DNA from: Streptomyces atroolivaceus
Lineage (GTDB): Bacteria > Actinomycetota > Actinomycetes > Streptomycetales > Streptomycetaceae
Direction: 5' to 3'
Assembly (NCBI RefSeq): GCF_000717025.1
Contig: NZ_JNXG01000008.1
Location: 124,001 to 188,000, forward strand
DNA: 64,000 nucleotides
Shown piece by piece: positions 3,847-64,000 of this stretch. Each line of letters starts with the position of its first letter. The stretch's first letter is position 1. Under the pieces are notes generated by a model. It saw only the letters and a list, made by a program, of their open reading frames with translations, was not told where the DNA came from and did no database searches. The position numbers were made by a program, and so were the translations under genes.

Positions 3847-6474
3847 TCAGGTGATGCGGGTGAGCTTGTCGCCGAAGGACGGCTCGGCCAGTGCGGTGCC
3901 CAGCGTGACCGCGACCTCCACCTGGCTCGCGCCTTCTCCGACGGTCATCGTGCCGACCCTCGTGCCCGCCGCCGCCGCGTTCGGAATCGTCTTGCCGTCG
4001 TCGGTCAGTTCCAGCTTGACCGTGAGGCCCGGCCAGCCGACCGCCTTGACGTCCTCGGCCACGACCACGTCGGTCGTGCGGCCGAAGCCGTCGTCGACGA
4101 CGCCGACGACCTGTCCCTTCTTCACGACGGTCCGGCTCTCCAGGAGGTCCTGCGTGGCGGTCATCGCCTCCTTGCTCACCGCGTTGACCGTGTCGATGAT
4201 CGGCGGCTTGTGCTGCCCCAGGATCGCGCCGACGATGAGCTGGTCGGTGTCCCCGACCTTCTTGTGCGCCGCGAAGAGCAGGTTGCCTCCGGCCTTGGTG
4301 GTGGAGCCCGTCTTGATGCCGAGCGCGCCGTCGTACGGAACCAGGGTGTTGTAGTTCCGGTGGCTCTGCCCCGACGGGTCCGTCCAGGACGGCAGCTTGG
4401 TGATGTCCATCAGCGCCGGGATCTCGACCAGCTTCTCGCCCAGCTTCACCTGGTCCTCGGCGGAGCTCACCGTGGTCGCGTTCAGCCCGGACGGGTCGGT
4501 GTAGGTGGTGTTCTCCATGCCGAGTTCCTTGGCGGTGTCGTTCATCTTCTTGACGAACGCCTCCTCGGAACCGGCGTCCCAGCGGGCGAGCAGCCTGGCG
4601 ATGTTGTTCGCCGAAGGGACCATGATGGCCGCCAGGGCGTCCTGCTGCGTGATCGTCTCTCCGGCCTTGACCGTGTTGAGGGTCGACTCGCCCACCGAGT
4701 CGAGCTTGCCCTCCTCCTCGGCCTTGGCGTCGATCTTGACGGCCGGCCCGTCCTCGCCCCTCTTCAGCGGGTGGTCCTTGAGCACGACGTAGGCGGTCAT
4801 CGCCTTGGCCACGCTGCCGATCGGCACCGCCTTCTGTTCGCCGAACGAGTCGACCGTGCCGAGCCCCGTGGCCGCCATGAAGCCCTGGCCCTCGTCCGGC
4901 CAGGGCAGCGAGGGCTTGCTCCCCGCGAAGTCGTACGTCTGCTTCGCCGTCAGCTCGAGGACGGGTTCGGGAAGCGGGCGCACCGCCTGTGCGATCGCAA
5001 AGGCGACCAGGAGGAGGAGCACCAGCGGCGTCCAGATCTTGACCCGCCGGACCGCCGTGCGGACCGGGGTCTCCGGGGGCGGCGGGGTGTTCGTCAGCTC
5101 GGCCAGCAGGTCGAGCGGCGGCTTGGGCGGCATGGGCTGCTGCCTGGTCCGCTCGGCCTCGGTGAGCCCCGCCCCTGGGGCCCCGGGGGTGCCGGGCTTC
5201 GCCGCGACGTCCGGGGTGACCGTGGGACCGACCACGGCAGCGGGACGTACGTCGTCCGAGCGCAGCGGGACGAACTTGCTGGTCCGCTCGGCGGGCGTCT
5301 CGGGGGCCCCGGAGGCTTCCCCGGCAGCCCAGGAGGCGGGCTTCCGCGCGGCCTCCCGCTCCTTCGGCGGGATCTTCAGCGCGGTCGTCGGCTGGTCGAC
5401 CTGGCCGACGCGGGGCGCCTTGAAGACGGCCGTCGGGTGATCGATTCCCCGCCCGTCGCGTGCGGGCTCCGGCTCCTTGGCCGGGGCGGCCTCCTCGCGG
5501 GTCTTCGGAACGCGGGGAGCGCCGCCGGGGGCGCTGACGGCGGGTACGTCGTCGGTACCGGCGACCGTCTCGACCTCGCTGTCGGCGGCCTCATCGGCCT
5601 CGCTGCCGGCCGGCGCCTCGGCATCGCTGCCAGCGTCGGGATCGTCGCTGTCGGCCTCGGAGCCGTCGCTGTCGGCGACGGGATCGTCGCTGTCGCTGTC
5701 GTCGTTCGGAGGGTCGCTGTCGCCTGGCTTCCTGTCGGCAGCGGCTGCCGCCGCGTCGTCGGTGTCGCCGTCGGACACGTCGTCGCCATCGGACGGCCTG
5801 CCCACACCCTCGTCAGCGCCGCCCTGAACTGCGGCTTCCTCGTCGGTCGCCACCCACGCCGCTACGGCGGCACGCAGCCGGGTGTCGGCCGGCGTCGCTT
5901 CCGCGTTCGCCTCGGCATCGGCATCCGCGTCGGCATCCGCGTCGGCGTCGGAGCGGGATCCGGACACCTCCGGAGCGGCCTCGGCGTCCCCGGCACCGGC
6001 TTCGGGCTGCTCCCCGGCCTCGGGCCGGCCGGAATCCGCGTCAGCCGCAGCAGCGGACCCGGCCTCGGCCTCGGAGGCCGCATCCGCATCCGCATCCGTT
6101 TCCGTCTCCGTCTCCGTCGCGGCCGGGGCGGGCTCCTCCGCCCCCGAAGGCGCCTCAGACGCCCCTGTGGCCGTCCCGGCCGTCTCCTCCGCGTCACCGG
6201 CCCCCTCGGCGCCCCCGCGGGGCCCGGAGGTGCCTTCAGGGCCCTCCGGGGCCTCCGAGGACGCGGATCCGCCCGCCGGGGCGCCGGCCTTCCCGGAGTG
6301 CGGCAGGCGGAAGACCGCCGTCTCGCTGTCCGTCGCGGCGCCCGTCGTCCCGCCCGCCGTGTTCGCGCCCGGCGCAGCGCCCGGTTCCCGGAACACTGCG
6401 AGACGCGGATCGCGTCCCTCAGCCGTCCCCGACGACTTCCGCTGCTCCGACATGTCGGGGGACTCGCCCGCCAC
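3847..6474 (-). CDS. Membrane-anchored D-alanyl-D-alanine carboxypeptidase with a long disordered tail
   Basis: An 875-residue peptidase S11 (PBP5/DacA-like) protein that trims the terminal D-Ala from peptidoglycan stem peptides. All three penicillin-binding motifs are present: SVAK (Ser554, Lys557), SAN (Ser621) and KTG (Lys721). One membrane span (about 478-497) puts the catalytic domain outside. The first ~470 residues are cytoplasmic, low in complexity and rich in Asp, Glu, Ala and Ser, with runs of DADADA. They carry repeated short motifs such as LAVFREP (about residue 25), TAVFRLP (52), TAVFKAP (346) and TTALKIP (361). I chose the GTG at 6474 because AAGGAGG sits 5 bases upstream; an in-frame ATG at 6609 has no better support. 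Ordinary family members are about 400 residues. Confidence 0.9.
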   Translation of the reverse strand: MAGESPDMSEQRKSSGTAEGRDPRLAVFREPGAAPGANTAGGTTGAATDSETAVFRLPHSGKAGAPAGGSASSEAPEGPEGTSGPRGGAEGAGDAEETAGTATGASEAPSGAEEPAPAATETETETDADADAASEAEAGSAAAADADSGRPEAGEQPEAGAGDAEAAPEVSGSRSDADADADADADAEANAEATPADTRLRAAVAAWVATDEEAAVQGGADEGVGRPSDGDDVSDGDTDDAAAAAADRKPGDSDPPNDDSDSDDPVADSDGSEADSDDPDAGSDAEAPAGSEADEAADSEVETVAGTDDVPAVSAPGGAPRVPKTREEAAPAKEPEPARDGRGIDHPTAVFKAPRVGQVDQPTTALKIPPKEREAARKPASWAAGEASGAPETPAERTSKFVPLRSDDVRPAAVVGPTVTPDVAAKPGTPGAPGAGLTEAERTRQQPMPPKPPLDLLAELTNTPPPPETPVRTAVRRVKIWTPLVLLLLVAFAIAQAVRPLPEPVLELTAKQTYDFAGSKPSLPWPDEGQGFMAATGLGTVDSFGEQKAVPIGSVAKAMTAYVVLKDHPLKRGEDGPAVKIDAKAEEEGKLDSVGESTLNTVKAGETITQQDALAAIMVPSANNIARLLARWDAGSEEAFVKKMNDTAKELGMENTTYTDPSGLNATTVSSAEDQVKLGEKLVEIPALMDITKLPSWTDPSGQSHRNYNTLVPYDGALGIKTGSTTKAGGNLLFAAHKKVGDTDQLIVGAILGQHKPPIIDTVNAVSKEAMTATQDLLESRTVVKKGQVVGVVDDGFGRTTDVVVAEDVKAVGWPGLTVKLELTDDGKTIPNAAAAGTRVGTMTVGEGASQVEVAVTLGTALAEPSFGDKLTRIT

Positions 6475-6668
6475 CGATACCTCCTTGATGAGCCGCGGGG
6501 TCATGCCCGCACTGTCCGAACCATCTACCAGTGTCCTGTGTGAACCCTTGACCGAGCCGCTAGACGAGAACGACATACCTAACGGTTCCCTCACAAAGCA
6601 CCCAGGCACCCTCGACAGACCAATGTGAGAGGGGTCACCCTGTCACTCATCCACGCGGGGAGGCATGG

Positions 6669-56781: not shown

Positions 56782-57471
56782 CTACGCGCCGAACGCCTTG
56801 GACTTCCCCTTGACCGGCTTCGCCCCCGCGAGCAGATGAGGCGGCACCAGGTCCCGGGCGGGCTCGGTGTACCCGACGGACACGATCTTGTCGCCCTGGT
56901 ACGTGAAACTCGTCAGCGAGGCCAGGGTGCACTGCCGCTTGCGGGGGTCGTGCCACAGCCTGCGCCGCTCCACGAAGCTCCTCACGATCCAGATCGGCAG
57001 CTGGTGGCTGACACAGACCGCCTCGTGCCCGCGCGCGGCGTCACGCGCCGCGTCCAGGGCACCCATCATCCGCACGACCTGTTCGATGTACGGCTCGCCC
57101 CAGGACGGCTTGAAGGGGTTGGTGAGGTGCTTCCAGTTCTCGGGCCTGCGCAGCGCGCCGTCGCCGACCCCGAAGGTCTTGCCCTCGAAGACGTTGCCGG
57201 CCTCGATCAGGCGCCCGTCGGTGGCCAGGTCCGCACCGTGCGACGCGGCGATCGGGGCGGCCGTCTCCTGGGCGCGCTCCAGCGGGGAGGCCACGACGTA
57301 CGTGATGTCGCGCTTCTCCAGGTGCTCGGCGACCCGGTCCGCCATCTGCCTGCCGAGCTCGGACAGGCTGTAGCCGGCGCGGCGCCCGTAGAGCACTCCG
57401 TCCGGGTTGTGCACCTCACCGTGGCGCATCAGGTGGACGACGGTGATGTCCTTCTCCGTGTACTCGCTCAT
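56782..57471 (-). CDS. Histidine phosphatase family protein (phosphoglycerate mutase-like)
   Basis: A 229-residue member of the histidine phosphatase superfamily. It has the catalytic LMRHGE motif (Arg16, His17), then [11 protein letters not shown] with the second Arg, the acid in GRLIEAGN and the second His in CVSHQLPI. Such proteins act on small phosphoesters; this one could be a mutase-like phosphatase, but no substrate can be assigned. It overlaps hemL by four bases and is probably cotranscribed with it, so a link with tetrapyrrole synthesis or metabolite repair is possible. Confidence 0.92.
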
Positions 57472-58775
57472 GACGTGGCCTCCGACGCGGCGCGGGCGGC
57501 TGCGGGAAGCGCCGCGGCGATCCGCTCCAGAGCCCGCGCGTCATGGGCGGTGGAGACGAACCAGGACTCGAACGCGGACGGCGGCAGGTACACACCCTGC
57601 TCCAGCATCGAGTGGAAGAAGGCGGTGAAACGGAAGGCCTCCTGCTTCTTCGCGTCCTCGTAGTTCCGGACGGGCTCCTCGGTGAAGAAGACGGAGAACA
57701 TGTTGCTCGCCGCCGAGACCGTGTGCGCGACCCCCGCCTTGGCGAACGCCTCGCCGACCAGGGAGCGCAGCTCCGCGGAGACCGCGTCGACCTTGGCGTA
57801 CGCCGCGTCGTCGAGCAGCCGCAGCTGGGCGAGGCCGGCCGCGGTGGCGACGGGGTTCCCGGAGAGGGTGCCCGCCTGGTACACGGGGCCGGCGGGGGCG
57901 AGGTGGGCCATCACGTCGGCACGGCCGCCGAAGGCGGCGGCCGGGAAGCCCCCGCCCATGACCTTGCCGAAGGTCATCAGGTCGGGCCGCACCCCGTCGA
58001 TGCCGTACCAGCCGGCCTTCGACGTACGGAATCCGGTCATCACCTCGTCGGAGATGTACAGCGCGCCCTCGGCCGCGCAGATCTCCTTCAGCCCGGCGTT
58101 GAAACCGTCCTGCGGCGGCACGACGCCCATGTTGCCCGGCGACGCCTCCGTGATCACACAGGCGATCTCACCCGGCTGCGCGGCGAACGCGGCGCGCACG
58201 GCCTCCAGGTCGTTGTACGGCAGCACGATCGTGTCGCCCGCCTGGGCGCCGGTCACACCGGGCGTGTCGGGCAGGCCGAAGGTGGCGACACCGGAGCCGG
58301 CCGCGGCCAGCAGCGCGTCGACGTGCCCGTGGTAGCACCCGGCGAACTTCACGACCTTGGCGCGGCCGGTGAATCCACGGGCGAGCCGGATCGCGGACAT
58401 GGTCGCCTCGGTGCCGGACGACACCAGCCGCACCTGCTCCACGGGCTCGATCCGGGCCACGATCTCCTCGGCCAGCGCGACCTCGCCCTCACCGGGCGTG
58501 CCGAACGAGGTACCCCGGGCAACGGCATCCTGGACGGCCGCGACGACCTCGGGGTGCGCGTGGCCGAGGATCATCGGCCCCCACGAACACACGAGGTCGA
58601 CGTACTCACGGCCGTCGGCGTCGGTGAGGTACGGACCCGTACCGGACACCATGAACCTGGGCGTACCGCCCACGGCCCGGAAGGCACGCACGGGAGAGTT
58701 CACGCCGCCGGGCGTCACGAGGGACGCGCGGTCGAAAAGCGTCTGCGAAACTGGGGCTTCGTATGAATACGCCAC
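57468..58775 (-). CDS. hemL: Glutamate-1-semialdehyde 2,1-aminomutase HemL
   Basis: A 435-residue PLP enzyme that converts glutamate-1-semialdehyde to 5-aminolevulinate, the first committed tetrapyrrole precursor. The PLP lysine is Lys271 in [18 protein letters not shown]. The N-terminal [19 protein letters not shown] and [19 protein letters not shown] are HemL hallmarks. The GTG at 58775 has AGGA 5 bases upstream; a longer frame from 58919 would add 48 unconserved residues. A 19-bp piece of its fifth to twelfth codons is repeated in the upstream region. It is coupled to the phosphatase gene by overlap. Confidence 0.96.
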
Positions 58776-58896
58776 TTTGGTCCTGATCTGCGATTCGGGG
58801 TTCGGGGGGCCTGGCCGGAATTCCCGGCCGCCGGTGAGCAGGGAGCGCGCTCTCCCCGTATGAGGCTCGTACAACGAAAGGGCGTCAGTCTCCTCG

Positions 58897-58915
58897 CGTC
58901 TGCGAAACTGGGGCG
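58897..58915 (-). repeat. Second copy of a 19-bp direct repeat shared with the hemL coding start
   Basis: GCCCCAGTTTCGCAGACGC (minus strand) occurs at 58897-58915, upstream of hemL, and again at 58739-58757 inside the first hemL codons. The two copies are in different reading frames, so the repeat is a DNA-level feature. Confidence 0.9.
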
Positions 58916-59067
58916 TCATAGGGAAAGCTCACACATGCCATGGTGTCAGAGGCGTCGACGGTCTTGCGGACAGGTGTTTCACCGCACGCCCGTGGGGGAG
59001 GTCACTGACGATGATCGGGTTGCGCGGCGGGGCTGTGTCTCCTAAGAAGTAGTCGGGTGGATGAGAT

Positions 59068-59769: not shown

Positions 59770-60123
59770 ATGGCGGCAGATGAACTGCGTGTGGCCGTGG
59801 AGGCCACCGACGACGGTGTGGTGCTGATCCGTGTCCGGGGAAGCCTGGACGGGTGGTCGGGTCCTTCCGGACTGGTCGAGGCGCTGGAGGCGGCCGCCGA
59901 CGGCGGCGGGCGGCTGACCGTGGCGGACCTGTCCCGGCTGGAGTTCGCCGACTCGACAGGGCTGCACGTCCTGCTGGACGCCCAGCACCGCCATGCCGCG
60001 GCCGGGGTGCGGCTGGTGCTGGCCGGACCGCTGGGCACGGAAGTCCGCCGGCTCTTCGAGGTCTCCGGCACGCTGGGCGCCTTCACGTTCGCCGACACGG
60101 TGGACGCGGCACTGACATGCTGA
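59770..60123 (+). CDS. STAS-domain anti-anti-sigma-factor-like protein
   Basis: A 117-residue STAS protein of the SpoIIAA/RsbV type. In the partner-switching scheme it binds an anti-sigma kinase when unphosphorylated and is released when the kinase phosphorylates a Ser. The phosphoacceptor motif is EFADSTGL, with Ser at about residue 62. A GHKL kinase gene follows 79 bases downstream, which suggests a direct partnership. The nearby SpoIIE-like phosphatase could remove the phosphate. Confidence 0.9.
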   Translation: MAADELRVAVEATDDGVVLIRVRGSLDGWSGPSGLVEALEAAADGGGRLTVADLSRLEFADSTGLHVLLDAQHRHAAAGVRLVLAGPLGTEVRRLFEVSGTLGAFTFADTVDAALTC

Positions 60124-60202
60124 CCGGCCGCGGGCCACGCCGTCCCCCGCCGGCCTCCGGCAGGAAGTGTGACGTGGGCCCGTCCGGGCAGGCGCAGGAA
60201 GT

Positions 60203-60688
60203 ATGAACGGGGATCGAGAAGTGTCGCGGGGCGGCAGGACCACGGCAGAGGGGCCGGAGAATGCCGTCGGCCCGCCTGCTCCGGAGGAGTCGGCGGGCGG
60301 GGGCCGCATGCCCTCCGTGCCGCCCAACGCGGCCGCCGCTCGTGACGTCGTCACCCGGCTCCTGGAGTCGCGGTTCTGCGGACTGGGCGGGGAGGTCCCG
60401 GCCGACGTCGTGGTGGCCGACGCCCTCCTGGTGACCTCGGAGCTGGTGACCAACGCCTTCAGGCACGGCGGCGGGCTCACCGGGTTCTCCGCCGAGATCA
60501 CCGACGAGGGGCTCCTCCTCACCGTCGCCGACGCCAGTACGCGGGCGCCGGTCACCGCGGAACGCGATCCGGCCGCCGCCCCCGTCGGTGGCTACGGCTG
60601 GCTCCTGGTGCGCCGCCTGACCAAGCGGGTCTCCGTCACGGACCTCCCCGGCGGCAAGCACATCGTCGCGCTGGTCGCCCTCGTCTGA
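60203..60688 (+). CDS. ATP-binding anti-sigma-factor-type serine kinase (RsbW/GHKL-like)
   Basis: A 161-residue HATPase domain protein. It has the N box ELVTNAFRHGGG and the G box VGGYGWLLVRRL, and is short as in the RsbW/SpoIIAB-type kinases of actinomycetes. It would bind a sigma factor or phosphorylate STAS partners; no sigma factor gene lies beside it. Residues 1-40 are a disordered, Gly/Glu-rich extension. The start may be the ATG at 60203 or the GTG at 60221 (GGGGA 7 bases upstream). Confidence 0.88.
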   Translation: MNGDREVSRGGRTTAEGPENAVGPPAPEESAGGGRMPSVPPNAAAARDVVTRLLESRFCGLGGEVPADVVVADALLVTSELVTNAFRHGGGLTGFSAEITDEGLLLTVADASTRAPVTAERDPAAAPVGGYGWLLVRRLTKRVSVTDLPGGKHIVALVALV

Positions 60689-60800
60689 GTGACAGGCCGC
60701 GCCGGCCGTCTTCGCGGCGGCGACGTGCCACGGGAGGGTGCCGCACGCCGGAGCCGGGCGTCCGCACGGCGGGGGCCGGAGAGTTGGCATAATTTCCCGC

Positions 60801-61193
60801 ATGGTCCGCGAGCCCCTCGAGAACTCCGCCCCGGCCCGCTTGCCCGTGGTGGCGGCCGAAGGCGAGATCAACGGTCACTGGGTCGTCCGGGCCCGGGGCG
60901 ATCTCGACTCCGACACCATCGATCCGCTCTTCCTCGCCCTGTGGCAGGCCGTGGCCGGGTACGAGGTCGTCGTACTGGACGCGTCCGGGATCACCTTCGC
61001 GGACTCGTCGTTCCTCAGTCTCCTCATCGAGGTGCACCAGCGGACGGAGCTGCGCATCGCCGCGCCGGGCACGGCCCTGACGCGGCTCCTGCGCGTCGCG
61101 GGTGTCGACCGGGTGCTCCGGAGCTATCCGACGCTCGACGCGGCCCTCGGCGCGCCGCCGGCCGCTCCCTGGCCACCGGGCGGCGACGGCTGA
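60801..61193 (+). CDS. STAS-domain protein
   Basis: A 130-residue STAS protein with the acceptor motif TFADSSFLSLL (two adjacent Ser) after the strand VVVLDASG. It lies 112 bases downstream of the kinase gene. The ATG at 60801 has no ribosome site but a CATAAT element 7 bases upstream, so it may be made from a leaderless transcript of its own. It is convergent with another STAS gene, 12 bases away. A long N-terminal extension (from 60738) is possible but looks unconserved. Confidence 0.88.
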   Translation: MVREPLENSAPARLPVVAAEGEINGHWVVRARGDLDSDTIDPLFLALWQAVAGYEVVVLDASGITFADSSFLSLLIEVHQRTELRIAAPGTALTRLLRVAGVDRVLRSYPTLDAALGAPPAAPWPPGGDG

Positions 61194-61205: not shown

Positions 61206-61628
61206 TCAGCCGGAGGGGGCGGGCGGCGGGGCCGCCCGGTAGCGGGCGTCGGCCGGTGGCGGGCCGTCCTCCGCCTGCTCGGCCTCCCGGCCGGCCTCGT
61301 CGAGGGCGAAGAGGTGCAGGGTCCCCGTGACGTCCAGGATCCTGCGGAGGAAGGGGGGCGGGTGCTCCAGGTGCAGCACCGCACCGCGGGACGCCGTGCC
61401 ACGGTGGATCAGCAGGAGGCTGGCGACCCCCATCGAGTCGCACAGCCGTAGCCCGGAGCAGTCCAGGAAGAGGTCGCGCACGGCGTGGTCGGCGGCGAGG
61501 CACGCCTGGGCCCGTTCCACGAACTGCTCGCTGGTGTCGTAGTCCAGGTCACCGGCGAGACGCAGCCGTACGGCACCCGGACCGGCCTCGACCGCCAGCG
61601 TGAGGGGCGGACACGGGTGTTCGGTCAT
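61206..61628 (-). CDS. STAS-domain protein linked to a B12-binding sensor
   Basis: A 140-residue STAS protein with acceptor motif LRLCDSMGVASLLL (Ser at about residue 67, replacing the more common ADSTGL context with CDSMGV). The C-terminal 25 residues are Pro/Ala-rich. It is translated last in a three-gene unit with a cobalamin-binding protein and a PP2C phosphatase, each overlapping the next by four bases (ATGA). The phosphatase is its probable regulator. Confidence 0.9.
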   Translation of the reverse strand: MTEHPCPPLTLAVEAGPGAVRLRLAGDLDYDTSEQFVERAQACLAADHAVRDLFLDCSGLRLCDSMGVASLLLIHRGTASRGAVLHLEHPPPFLRRILDVTGTLHLFALDEAGREAEQAEDGPPPADARYRAAPPPAPSG

Positions 61629-62719
61629 CCGAGTCTCCGGGGTCGGGGACCGGCGGTTGCCAGGAAGGCGTCCACGACGGTGTGTGCGCGGCCGAGCAGC
61701 CGGGTGGACCGGGGGAAGTCCTTGAGCTCCGTCCCCAGGACGTCGAGGACCGGTGTCAGGGACGCGGCCGGGACCCGGCGGGCCTCGAGAATGCCCGCCG
61801 TCCACTCCAGGAAGCCGGTGAAGAGTTCGTCGTCGTCCATGTAGAGGGCCACGCCCAGGTAGTCGACGATGTGGGCGATGTCCTGTGCCGTGTGCTCCCG
61901 TTGCTGCTCCGTGTAGGCCGCCGCCGCGGGGAAGCGGCTCTCGAGCTGTGCCAGCACCTCCCGCACCAGCTGCGTCCTGCTGCGGGCGACGAGCGTGTAC
62001 TCCTGGTCGCCCAGGTGCGGCAGATCGTCTATCTGCTGCCTGCCGGCGGCGGGAATCGGCACCGGGAGGCCGTCCGCGATGCGGCGCGCCGCGGAGCGCG
62101 CGTCGGGCTCCCAGGCGTCGGCACCCAGCCGGCGTGCGTGCCTGCCGTCGGACCCGAACGCCGCACCGCCGGCCAGTACGGGTACCCCCACCGCCTGGCA
62201 TGCGGTGATCGCCGCGTGAGCCGTGGGCAGCCGGGTGGGGATCGAGGAGGAGAGCGCGACCACGTCCGCACCGTGGTTGTGCAGGTGCCCGATGAGGTGC
62301 GGCGTGGGCACCTGTGCCCCGAGGAAGTCGACCTGCCATCCGCGCAGGGTGAGGACCTCGGCCAGCAGACGCGCAGGGAGCACGTGCCATTCCTGGTCCA
62401 CGCACGCCACGGTGACCCGGCCCCGCCACGGCTCGGTGCGTCCGGCGGGGTGGTGGGCCAGCGCGGCGATGACCCGCTCGGCGATGGCGCTCGCCGCGTG
62501 TTCCTGCGCCACGCTGAGGCGGTTGGCCGCCCATTCGGTGCCGACCCGTTCCTGCACGGGGGCGATGACGTCCAGCAGCGCGGTCTCCGCGTCGATTCCG
62601 TCGTCCAGCGCGGTGAAGACCACTTCGGCGGCCGCGTGTTCGTCCCGGTCGGTCACCGCGGCCCACAGCCGGTCCTGGAGGCCGCGCACCCGGGGCGCGG
62701 CAGGAGTGTGAGTGCTCAT
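61625..62719 (-). CDS. Cobalamin-binding sensor protein with CarH-like light-sensing motif
   Basis: A 364-residue protein. Residues about 15-95 form a helical bundle and about 100-220 a B12-binding Rossmann domain (VTVACVDQEWHVLPARLLAEVL, with Glu110 and His112 aligning to the ExH cobalt-ligand motif; the usual Gly is Pro). The bundle contains W-x9-E-H (Trp63, Glu73, His74), the arrangement that caps adenosylcobalamin in the photoreceptor CarH. The C-terminal ~130 residues are helical and resemble RsbR-type N-terminal bundles. There is no DNA-binding domain. It overlaps the phosphatase and STAS genes by ATGA. A light- or B12-sensing input to the phosphoswitch is inferred. Confidence 0.88.
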   Translation of the reverse strand: MSTHTPAAPRVRGLQDRLWAAVTDRDEHAAAEVVFTALDDGIDAETALLDVIAPVQERVGTEWAANRLSVAQEHAASAIAERVIAALAHHPAGRTEPWRGRVTVACVDQEWHVLPARLLAEVLTLRGWQVDFLGAQVPTPHLIGHLHNHGADVVALSSSIPTRLPTAHAAITACQAVGVPVLAGGAAFGSDGRHARRLGADAWEPDARSAARRIADGLPVPIPAAGRQQIDDLPHLGDQEYTLVARSRTQLVREVLAQLESRFPAAAAYTEQQREHTAQDIAHIVDYLGVALYMDDDELFTGFLEWTAGILEARRVPAASLTPVLDVLGTELKDFPRSTRLLGRAHTVVDAFLATAGPRPRRLG

Positions 62720-64000
62720 GCCGTGTACCTGCCCCGGGTGTGGCCGTCCACCGCGCTCAGATGCGTGGTCAGCGGGGCGGTGATCGCGACGAGGGCCATG
62801 TCGTCGTGCCGGCCGTCGTGCAGCCACTGGGACGCGAGCATCTGGACACGCTCGACCACGGCCGTGCCCGGCATGCCGGCGCACTCCCCGAGGGCCCGCA
62901 TCAGCCGCTCCTCACCGTACAGTTCGTCGCCGAGGGGCCCGCCGCGTGCCTCGGTGACGCCGTCGGTGTAGAGCAGGCACGTCTCGCCCGGACGGAGGTC
63001 GGTCTCCACGGTGCGGACCTCGATGTGGGGCAGCGCCCCGACCAGGGTCCCCCGGGTCTCGATCTCCTCGACACGGCCGTCGTTGCGGATCACCAGGGGG
63101 GCGGGGTGCCCCGCCGACGTGAGGCGCAGGCGCACCCGGTTCTCCTTGCGCCGGACCGAAGCGAGCACCAGGGTCGCGAAGCGGGTGTGGTGCGAGTTGA
63201 GGAGCGCCCCGTTGAGCAGCCGCAGCATCCGCTCGTGGTCGCCCGCCATCGGTGTCAGCGCCTGCAGCGTGTTGCGGATCTTTCCGGTGAGGACGGCTGC
63301 GTCCAGGCCCTTTCCGCACACGTCGCCGAGGACCGCCAGGGACGGGTCGTCAGGTGTGCTGCCGGGGTGTACGTCGTAGAAGTCGCCGCCCACCCGGTCC
63401 CGCGCCGCGGCGGGCTGATAGCCGCCGGCGAACTCCACCCCGTTCACCCGGTCCAGCCGGGGCGGCAGCAGGTCCCGCATCAGGGTGCGGGTTATGTCGC
63501 TCTGCTCCGCGTACAGCCGCGCCGCGGACAGGGCCGCACCGGCCCGTGCGGCGAACAGCCGGGCGAAGACCTCTTCGCTCTCGTTGAACTCGGTGGTCCC
63601 GGTGCTGCGCAGCAGGACCAGGACGCCGGCCGGGACCCCGTGGCCCGGCAGAGGGGTGACGGCGGCCGAGCCCACGGTGCCGGTGAATCCCTCGGGGATG
63701 AGCCAGTCGGGCAGTGCGGCGGGGTCGATCCACCGGGACGGGACGGGCGGGAAGCCCTGCAGCGCCTCGCTCAGGCCGGGGACCTGGACGGGGTCCGCCG
63801 TCACCGTCCCGCGGACCGCCGCCCCGCCTCCGACCGCGTACGCCATGGGGAGCTGCCGGCCCGCCGCGGGCATGATGACGACGGCGGCCTCGGCGAGGTG
63901 CTGGGAGGCGAGCTGGGCGGTGACCTGCATGCAGCGATCGGTGTTCAGCGACGCCAGCAGTACGTTCGACGCCTCGGCCAGGAAGGCGGTTCGCTCCCGT
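62716..64000 (-). CDS. PP2C-type (SpoIIE/RsbU-like) serine phosphatase with GAF-like domain, 5' end outside the window
   Basis: At least 428 residues; the frame stays open to the right edge, and its N-terminus is missing. The visible N-terminal part (RTAFLAEASNVLLASLNTDRCMQVTAQLASQ onward) looks like a GAF sensor domain, followed by a short helical linker (LYAEQSDITRTLMRDLLPPRL) and a PP2C domain with the metal Asp motifs VGGDFYDV, GDVCGKGLDAA and GRHDDMALV. It should dephosphorylate STAS partners. It is the first visible gene of the ATGA-coupled trio with the B12 protein and STAS protein. An ATG at 63930 lies inside the GAF domain and is not the start. Confidence 0.92.
   Translation of the reverse strand, partial: RERTAFLAEASNVLLASLNTDRCMQVTAQLASQHLAEAAVVIMPAAGRQLPMAYAVGGGAAVRGTVTADPVQVPGLSEALQGFPPVPSRWIDPAALPDWLIPEGFTGTVGSAAVTPLPGHGVPAGVLVLLRSTGTTEFNESEEVFARLFAARAGAALSAARLYAEQSDITRTLMRDLLPPRLDRVNGVEFAGGYQPAAARDRVGGDFYDVHPGSTPDDPSLAVLGDVCGKGLDAAVLTGKIRNTLQALTPMAGDHERMLRLLNGALLNSHHTRFATLVLASVRRKENRVRLRLTSAGHPAPLVIRNDGRVEEIETRGTLVGALPHIEVRTVETDLRPGETCLLYTDGVTEARGGPLGDELYGEERLMRALGECAGMPGTAVVERVQMLASQWLHDGRHDDMALVAITAPLTTHLSAVDGHTRGRYTA

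Follow-up and report, generated by a model that had tools for sequence, protein, structure and literature searches.

A photocobilin gene coupled to phosphatase and STAS genes in Streptomyces atroolivaceus: a candidate light-gated partner switch

The present study examined three genes on the minus strand at one end of a 64,000-nt stretch of the Streptomyces atroolivaceus genome (8.2 Mb); this stretch is referred to as the window, and coordinates are given in its numbering. The trio encodes a SpoIIE-type serine phosphatase, a cobalamin (B12)-binding sensor and a small STAS protein. The sensor is almost certainly a photocobilin, a member of a family described in 2024 that binds adenosylcobalamin and biliverdin together and in which green light, or red light via biliverdin, breaks the Co–C bond; one member, SasPcob of Saccharothrix syringae (PDB 8J2W, 8J2X), has been solved and photocharacterised (PMC10979010). 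Of 132 distinct photocobilin loci, 120 have a SpoIIE gene immediately upstream in the same orientation. A functional link between sensor and phosphatase is very likely, and it appears fairly probable that the stand-alone photocobilin acts in trans on the co-encoded PAS-GAF-SpoIIE phosphatase as part of a light-gated partner switch.

The trio and its features are as follows:
62716–64000 (−; stop codon 62716–62718): PAS-GAF-SpoIIE (PPM/PP2C) serine phosphatase, an open reading frame (ORF) open at its 5' end; Pfam SpoIIE (E 4.3e-42) and GAF
about 64398 (−; beyond the window): predicted start of the phosphatase gene, from the ORF at 4716–6548 of locus L007
62722–62763 (−): codons for HLSAVDGHTRGRYT, the conserved tail at the phosphatase C-terminus, with the position counted back from the stop codon
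62716–62719 (−): ATGA shared by the stop codon of the phosphatase gene and the start codon of the photocobilin gene, context GGC-ATGA-GC
61625–62719 (−; start 62719, stop codon 61625–61627): photocobilin, 364 amino acids (aa), from Pfam, PDB match and AlphaFold2 model; four-helix bundle at residues ~9–88, B12-binding Rossmann domain ~100–216, photoglobin (bilin-binding globin) domain ~240–356
61625–61628 (−): ATGA shared by the stop codon of the photocobilin gene and the start codon of the STAS gene, context CGG-ATGA-CC
61206–61628 (−): single-domain STAS protein, 140 aa, anti-sigma antagonist type; Pfam STAS and STAS_2 (E 9.9e-16)

A first-pass annotation of the window had described the three genes as translationally coupled, and an ATGA can be read at both junctions.

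The sensor and its chromophore sites

Domain assignment of the window proteins with Pfam family profiles finds only B12-binding and B12-binding_2 in the middle protein, in agreement with the earlier view that it carries no DNA-binding domain, and leaves about 150 C-terminal residues without a label. Searched against the PDB with phmmer, the sensor matches SasPcob (8j2w/8j2x) over residues 15–346 with an E-value of 4e-78, followed by AbPcob (3e-38) and by chains of the CarH type (1.5e-7 or weaker). An AlphaFold2 model built from a 51-row alignment (mean predicted local distance difference test score, pLDDT, 90.4) shows helices at residues 239–355 of the C-terminal part. With this model as query, Foldseek returns 8j2w at the top (template modelling (TM) score 0.95 of target) and 8j2x (0.92), at 43% identity, with AbPcob (8j2y; 0.90) next; B12 domains of the CarH type and of other kinds follow, aligned over about 210 columns. 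Since SasPcob matches both sequence and model that far, the last third of the sensor is, as judged from these two sources, a photoglobin domain. The first-pass annotation had called the protein a CarH-like B12 sensor: the B12 module with its W-x9-E-H motif stands, but a bilin-binding globin domain at the C-terminus had been overlooked, so that the protein is better described as a photocobilin. With this domain present, the sensor is predicted to take its input from red light in addition to green.

The likeness to SasPcob covers all three parts of the protein, the cap and axial residues of the B12 site, and the bilin contacts. The W-x9-EH motif, which caps the adenosyl group in both SasPcob and CarH (PMC10979010), is formed by Trp63, Glu73 and His74, at the residues previously noted, and the axial histidine is H112, within E110-W-H112. 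Asp270, Trp296 and His137, the bilin contacts of SasPcob, correspond to D280, W306 and H141. The SasPcob residue numbers in PMC10979010 carry an offset of 5, by which Asp270 maps to D280; D286, another candidate for this Asp, was rejected for the same reason. A published light signature consists of GxxW, EH, GxxH and GxxxP (PMC11796333), of which GxxW (G60–W63), EH and GxxxP (G134–P138) are present in the window sensor and GxxH is not.

Conservation was assessed in a set of close relatives, the best 80 of 102 relatives from a tblastn genome scan, with 56–90% identity to the window sensor; these come from Streptomyces, Actinacidiphila, Mycobacterium, Mycolicibacterium, Nocardia, Actinomadura, Actinoallomurus, Actinospica and Sphaerisporangium. 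The Trp, Glu and His, on whose conservation among orthologues the first-pass annotation had staked its reading, are invariant in 80/80 loci, as are E110 and H112. The bilin site is nearly as constant, with D280 kept in 79/80, W306 in 79/80 (one gap) and H141 in 77/80. Sensor homologues in general number at least 1757 proteins at an E-value of 1e-10 or better (7994 candidates scored), and the top protein match among the matches listed has 99% identity and is labelled Streptomyces atroolivaceus.

Pairing with SpoIIE-type phosphatases and partner-switch genes

Since the 80 loci had been selected by closeness, a class-wide sample was added, in which 296 genomes spread evenly over the class were searched with SasPcob as query, giving 59 places in 50 genomes. 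Gene context was taken from 55 stretches (every place but the window's own), of which 54 could be scored for the upstream neighbour. SpoIIE genes were counted only as immediate neighbours on the same strand and STAS genes only where adjacent, and upstream neighbours only where more than 1.5 kb of upstream sequence was present, which left out L074, at a contig edge. One locus common to both sets was removed for the pooled count of 132.

SpoIIE directly precedes the sensor in 79/79 testable close-relative loci and in 42/54 class-wide loci. The class-wide figure divides with similarity to the family: at photocobilin hidden Markov model (HMM) scores above 208 bits the phosphatase is present in 33/33 loci, and at 208 bits or below in 9/21 testable loci. 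Phosphatase and sensor are joined by an NTGA overlap in 73/79 close-relative and 33/42 class-wide pairs. The window genome, at 8.2 Mb, holds 39 SpoIIE domains, a density that rules out chance adjacency as the source of such a count. Because the pair recurs in many actinobacteria, the phosphatase is the best candidate for what the sensor controls. Among photocobilin relatives without SpoIIE, five ORFs were scanned for a fused output, and no Pfam domain beyond the two B12 domains was found. At L132 and L133, the phosphatase gene is followed by two tandem photocobilin genes and then by the STAS gene.

Pfam detects SpoIIE and GAF in the trio phosphatase, with PAS_8 under its cut-off. In an AlphaFold2 model of the orthologue at L008 (mean pLDDT 85.3, predicted TM score 0.56), a PAS-like domain, a helix, a GAF domain, a helical linker (276–312), the PPM domain and a disordered tail (549–563) follow one another. 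A PPM/SpoIIE domain preceded by N-terminal sensory domains and a helical linker is the arrangement of RsbU-type phosphatases. The catalytic domain is likewise nearest to RsbU-type folds, and the closest solved structure is the RsbU-RsbW part of Rv1364c. Within the trio phosphatase, conservation is highest in the linker helix, which was considered as a specific docking site and set aside, since an unrelated paralogue family also has a linker somewhat more conserved than its catalytic domain (3/3 orthologues).

Conservation of the trio across genomes, which the first-pass annotation had proposed to check, is borne out by this survey for the SpoIIE pair, and less so for the STAS gene, which directly follows the sensor in 65/80 close-relative and 22/54 class-wide loci, with an NTGA overlap in 50/65 and 13/22 of them. 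The STAS protein of the trio carries a D-S-x-G phosphosite at Ser65; among the downstream STAS proteins of the close relatives the Asp of this site is found in 65/65 and the Ser in 63/65 (one Thr, one Ala). It is reasonably probable that the trio STAS protein is the substrate of the phosphatase. In Nocardia the STAS gene lies upstream of the phosphatase instead (6/7 loci), and the phosphatase–sensor pair occurs without a directly downstream STAS gene in 7/7 loci.

A candidate for the RsbW-type kinase, an HATPase_c_2 gene, is convergent with the trio in the window, and six other loci have such a gene in line ahead of the pair. At five of these (L138, L151, L161, L175 and L072) STAS, HATPase_c_2, SpoIIE and photocobilin genes are in line on one strand, and at L170 the order is HATPase, SpoIIE and photocobilin. 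L138, L161, L170 and L175 come from outside the window's family, and L151 and L072 from Streptomyces-type genomes. We regard these complete in-line sets as the strongest genomic indication of a partner-switch pathway.

The relationships of the sensors were examined in a FastTree phylogeny with midpoint root. It comprises 61 sensors (the window, the class sample, eight chosen from the 80 loci, SasPcob and AbPcob), leaving out class-sample rows shorter than 280 aa and two damaged-looking rows, L159 and L173. SasPcob falls in a group of 43, and the other 42 members all belong to loci with a phosphatase (two being second copies of tandem pairs); the bilin Asp is found in 41/43, the exceptions being L055 (Glu) and L153 (Gly). 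Its sister is a clade of 11 (support 1.0), with Asp280 in 0/11, the W-E-H-H set of the B12 site in 10/11 and an adjacent SpoIIE gene in 8/11, where the loss of the bilin Asp is read from an alignment at about 40% identity to SasPcob and the grouping depends on the midpoint root. The SpoIIE-linked sensors that keep the B12 light motif without the bilin Asp are L160, L161, L162, L163, L164, L165, L170 and L175. Three genomes (G003, G249 and G290) each have one sensor of either SpoIIE-linked class. In a clade of seven around AbPcob (support 0.98), SpoIIE is adjacent in 0/5 loci with usable context. AbPcob is the sensor of AbDPcob (PDB 8J2Y), a photocobilin–diguanylate cyclase that shares the sensor fold (the TM score of 0.90 above), in which light switches the enzyme and whose sensor domain also works in trans. 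Unlike the window sensor, AbDPcob is fused to its enzyme and has His for the bilin Asp. The SpoIIE-linked relative L159 has R, R, Y and R at the positions of W63, H112, D280 and W306; judged from this alignment, it is possibly a chromophore-less descendant, or reflects an alignment fault.

As for the supply of chromophores, the window genome encodes one haem oxygenase and both adenosyltransferase families. The haem oxygenase family PF01126 is found in 26/50 photocobilin genomes and in 90/246 others (Fisher p 0.056), an enrichment too weak to be taken as proof of bilin use, and only about half of the photocobilin genomes therefore have an evident source of biliverdin. SpoIIE-linked sensors in genomes without PF01126 keep D280 in 16/21. 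Four loci in a tree group with the Mycobacterium locus L021 (L136, L139, L142 and L143) have an intact bilin site, in genomes without PF01126 (G258, G003, G290 and G049).

Proposed mechanism and alternatives

In the mechanism favoured here, the sensor would in the dark bind adenosylcobalamin, capped by W63, E73 and H74 with H112 as lower ligand, and biliverdin in its globin domain (D280, W306), forming a head-to-tail dimer; these features have been demonstrated for SasPcob and are suggested for the window sensor by conservation. Green light via B12, or red light via the bilin, would break the Co–C bond and render the sensor monomeric, as SasPcob becomes in the light (PMC10979010). The changed sensor could then alter the phosphatase, whose sensory domains and helical linker are the probable site of action, in the manner of RsbT on RsbU and RsbQ on RsbP. 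The phosphatase would dephosphorylate the co-encoded STAS protein at Ser65, as expected from its family, and the STAS protein would bind an RsbW-type HATPase, freeing a sigma factor or other target. Photocobilins are known to alter cyclase activity in trans (PMC10979010), and in RsbU a partner protein activates the PPM phosphatase by ordering the helical linker (PMC12143880). Like the trio, the RsbU/RsbT and RsbP/RsbQ systems (PMC12143880) comprise a PPM phosphatase that carries sensory domains and a helical linker, together with a STAS target, and control in trans is proposed here by analogy; in place of a kinase-like or hydrolase-like partner there would be a two-chromophore photoreceptor. 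The first-pass annotation had already suggested a light- or B12-gated partner switch rather than a direct repressor, which fits the domain content and the SpoIIE/STAS context, and had missed the bilin input. Light is likely to be the physiological signal. By analogy, light is somewhat likelier to activate than to repress, because it raises the activity of the AbDPcob fusion more than tenfold and holo SasPcob activates when lit; on the same cyclase, however, the biliverdin-free protein has the opposite effect (PMC10979010).

Several observations weigh against this mechanism. Twelve of the 132 loci have no SpoIIE gene upstream, and no STAS gene flanks the pair on either side in 9/80 and 29/55 loci, so the STAS protein may not be the sole substrate. 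The phosphatase carries PAS-like and GAF domains of its own, and may because of these read other signals. In the sensor, QxxH (Q109) stands in place of the published GxxH, which SasPcob has; among the close relatives this position is Q in 24/80, G in 55/80 and R in 1/80. The classical haem oxygenase (PF01126) was not found in 24/50 photocobilin genomes, other bilin sources not having been searched. In the literature searched, no experiment was found that shows a photocobilin acting on a phosphatase.

In a different reading, the sensor reports the supply or breakdown of adenosylcobalamin rather than light itself, and what the phosphatase answers to is B12 status, or damage by oxidation or light. 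It would account for the wider conservation of the B12 site than of the bilin site, as in the sister clade (W-E-H-H 10/11, Asp280 0/11), and for the 24 genomes without the classical haem oxygenase. A pure B12-level sensor has no need of D280 and W306, however, each of which is kept in 79 of the 80 close-relative loci; in addition, the adenosyl-capping W-x9-EH (role from PMC10979010) is invariant in those loci, and SasPcob responds to light in vitro (PMC10979010). We consider this reading unlikely.

A further arrangement, quite improbable in our estimation, is stressosome-like: the sensor's target would be the STAS protein or the kinase of that protein, with the phosphatase as an independent partner in the same unit. 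Sensor and STAS genes are indeed coupled by ATGA in the window and often overlap elsewhere (the 50/65 and 13/22 given above), and the non-haem globin domain of RsbR is related to photoglobins, as an outgroup to them (PMC10151467). The phosphatase is nevertheless the steadier neighbour, at 120/132 loci against 65/80 and 22/54 for a downstream STAS gene, and the pair persists in all seven Nocardia loci without one. Direct transcriptional repression after the fashion of CarH/LitR can be practically dismissed on domain content. Thermus CarH (PDB 5C8A–5C8F) and the window sensor have in common the four-helix bundle, the Rossmann B12 fold and the W...EH motif, but Pfam finds no DNA-binding domain in the latter, whose model begins in the four-helix bundle, with no MerR-type domain before it, and ends in an additional globin domain.

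The first-pass annotation knew of no characterised system with this make-up. This remains so for the trio itself in the literature searched, but the sensor type is characterised, and a link to STAS, SpoIIE and PP2C proteins was predicted in PMC10979010, where network evidence indicated that SasPcob potentially interacts with them. Zhang et al. 2024 describe the role of stand-alone photocobilins as less clear (PMC10979010). Among full-text papers naming photocobilin, which included few subscription papers, SpoIIE or STAS was mentioned in this sense only in PMC10979010. What the present analysis seems to add is how widely and how strictly sensor and phosphatase are paired, together with the complete partner-switch sets, the sister class that lacks the bilin Asp, and the tail motif of the phosphatase; no prior description of them was found in a search of mostly open papers, and published photoglobin work may contain overlapping gene-neighbourhood data. 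The class-wide pairing, by overlapping genes, with one orthologous SpoIIE phosphatase names a likely output of stand-alone photocobilins and makes that output testable. If the proposed mechanism is true, light would join the signals of PPM phosphatases in soil actinobacteria via a trans-acting two-chromophore receptor, and the trio would provide a natural phosphatase gated by red and green light.

Phosphatase tail and neighbouring genes

The tail of the phosphatase, HLSAVDGHTxGRYTA, is predicted to be disordered and is kept by the majority of Streptomyces and Mycobacterium members. Of 36 own-genome paralogues detected by HMM in 38 stretches, 0 have this motif, though one of them, L199, has a similar VDGHT stretch at its end. 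With a looser pattern, a downstream STAS gene accompanies 72/73 tail-bearing loci vs 15/48 tail-less ones (121 loci, one duplicate included), a co-occurrence that shared ancestry could explain. Synonymous codons within LSAVDGHT vary, and the Arg before the Tyr is AGG in 40/43; this AGG is probably also part of the ribosome-binding site of the photocobilin gene. It could be speculated, tentatively, that SpoIIE-coupled photocobilins make up a pathway from light to phosphatase that is large and old in actinobacteria and comes in two colour classes, one using B12 and bilin (green/red) and its sister B12 only (green), the latter without the bilin Asp yet mostly with a SpoIIE partner of its own, and that the HLSAVDGHT tail of the first class docks the STAS protein or the sensor.

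Facing the trio in the window is a convergent set of three genes, assigned by Pfam:
60798–61193 (+): second STAS gene
60203–60688 (+): HATPase_c_2 gene, the RsbW-type kinase candidate
59770–60123 (+): STAS gene, beside the trio in close relatives only

This STAS-HATPase_c_2-STAS set (59770–61193) was considered as part of the trio unit and is not counted as core, because it is confined to close relatives. Also near the trio, at 57468–58919 (−), is a gene resembling glutamate-1-semialdehyde aminotransferase, which we take to be hemL, presumably for an early step towards haem and B12.

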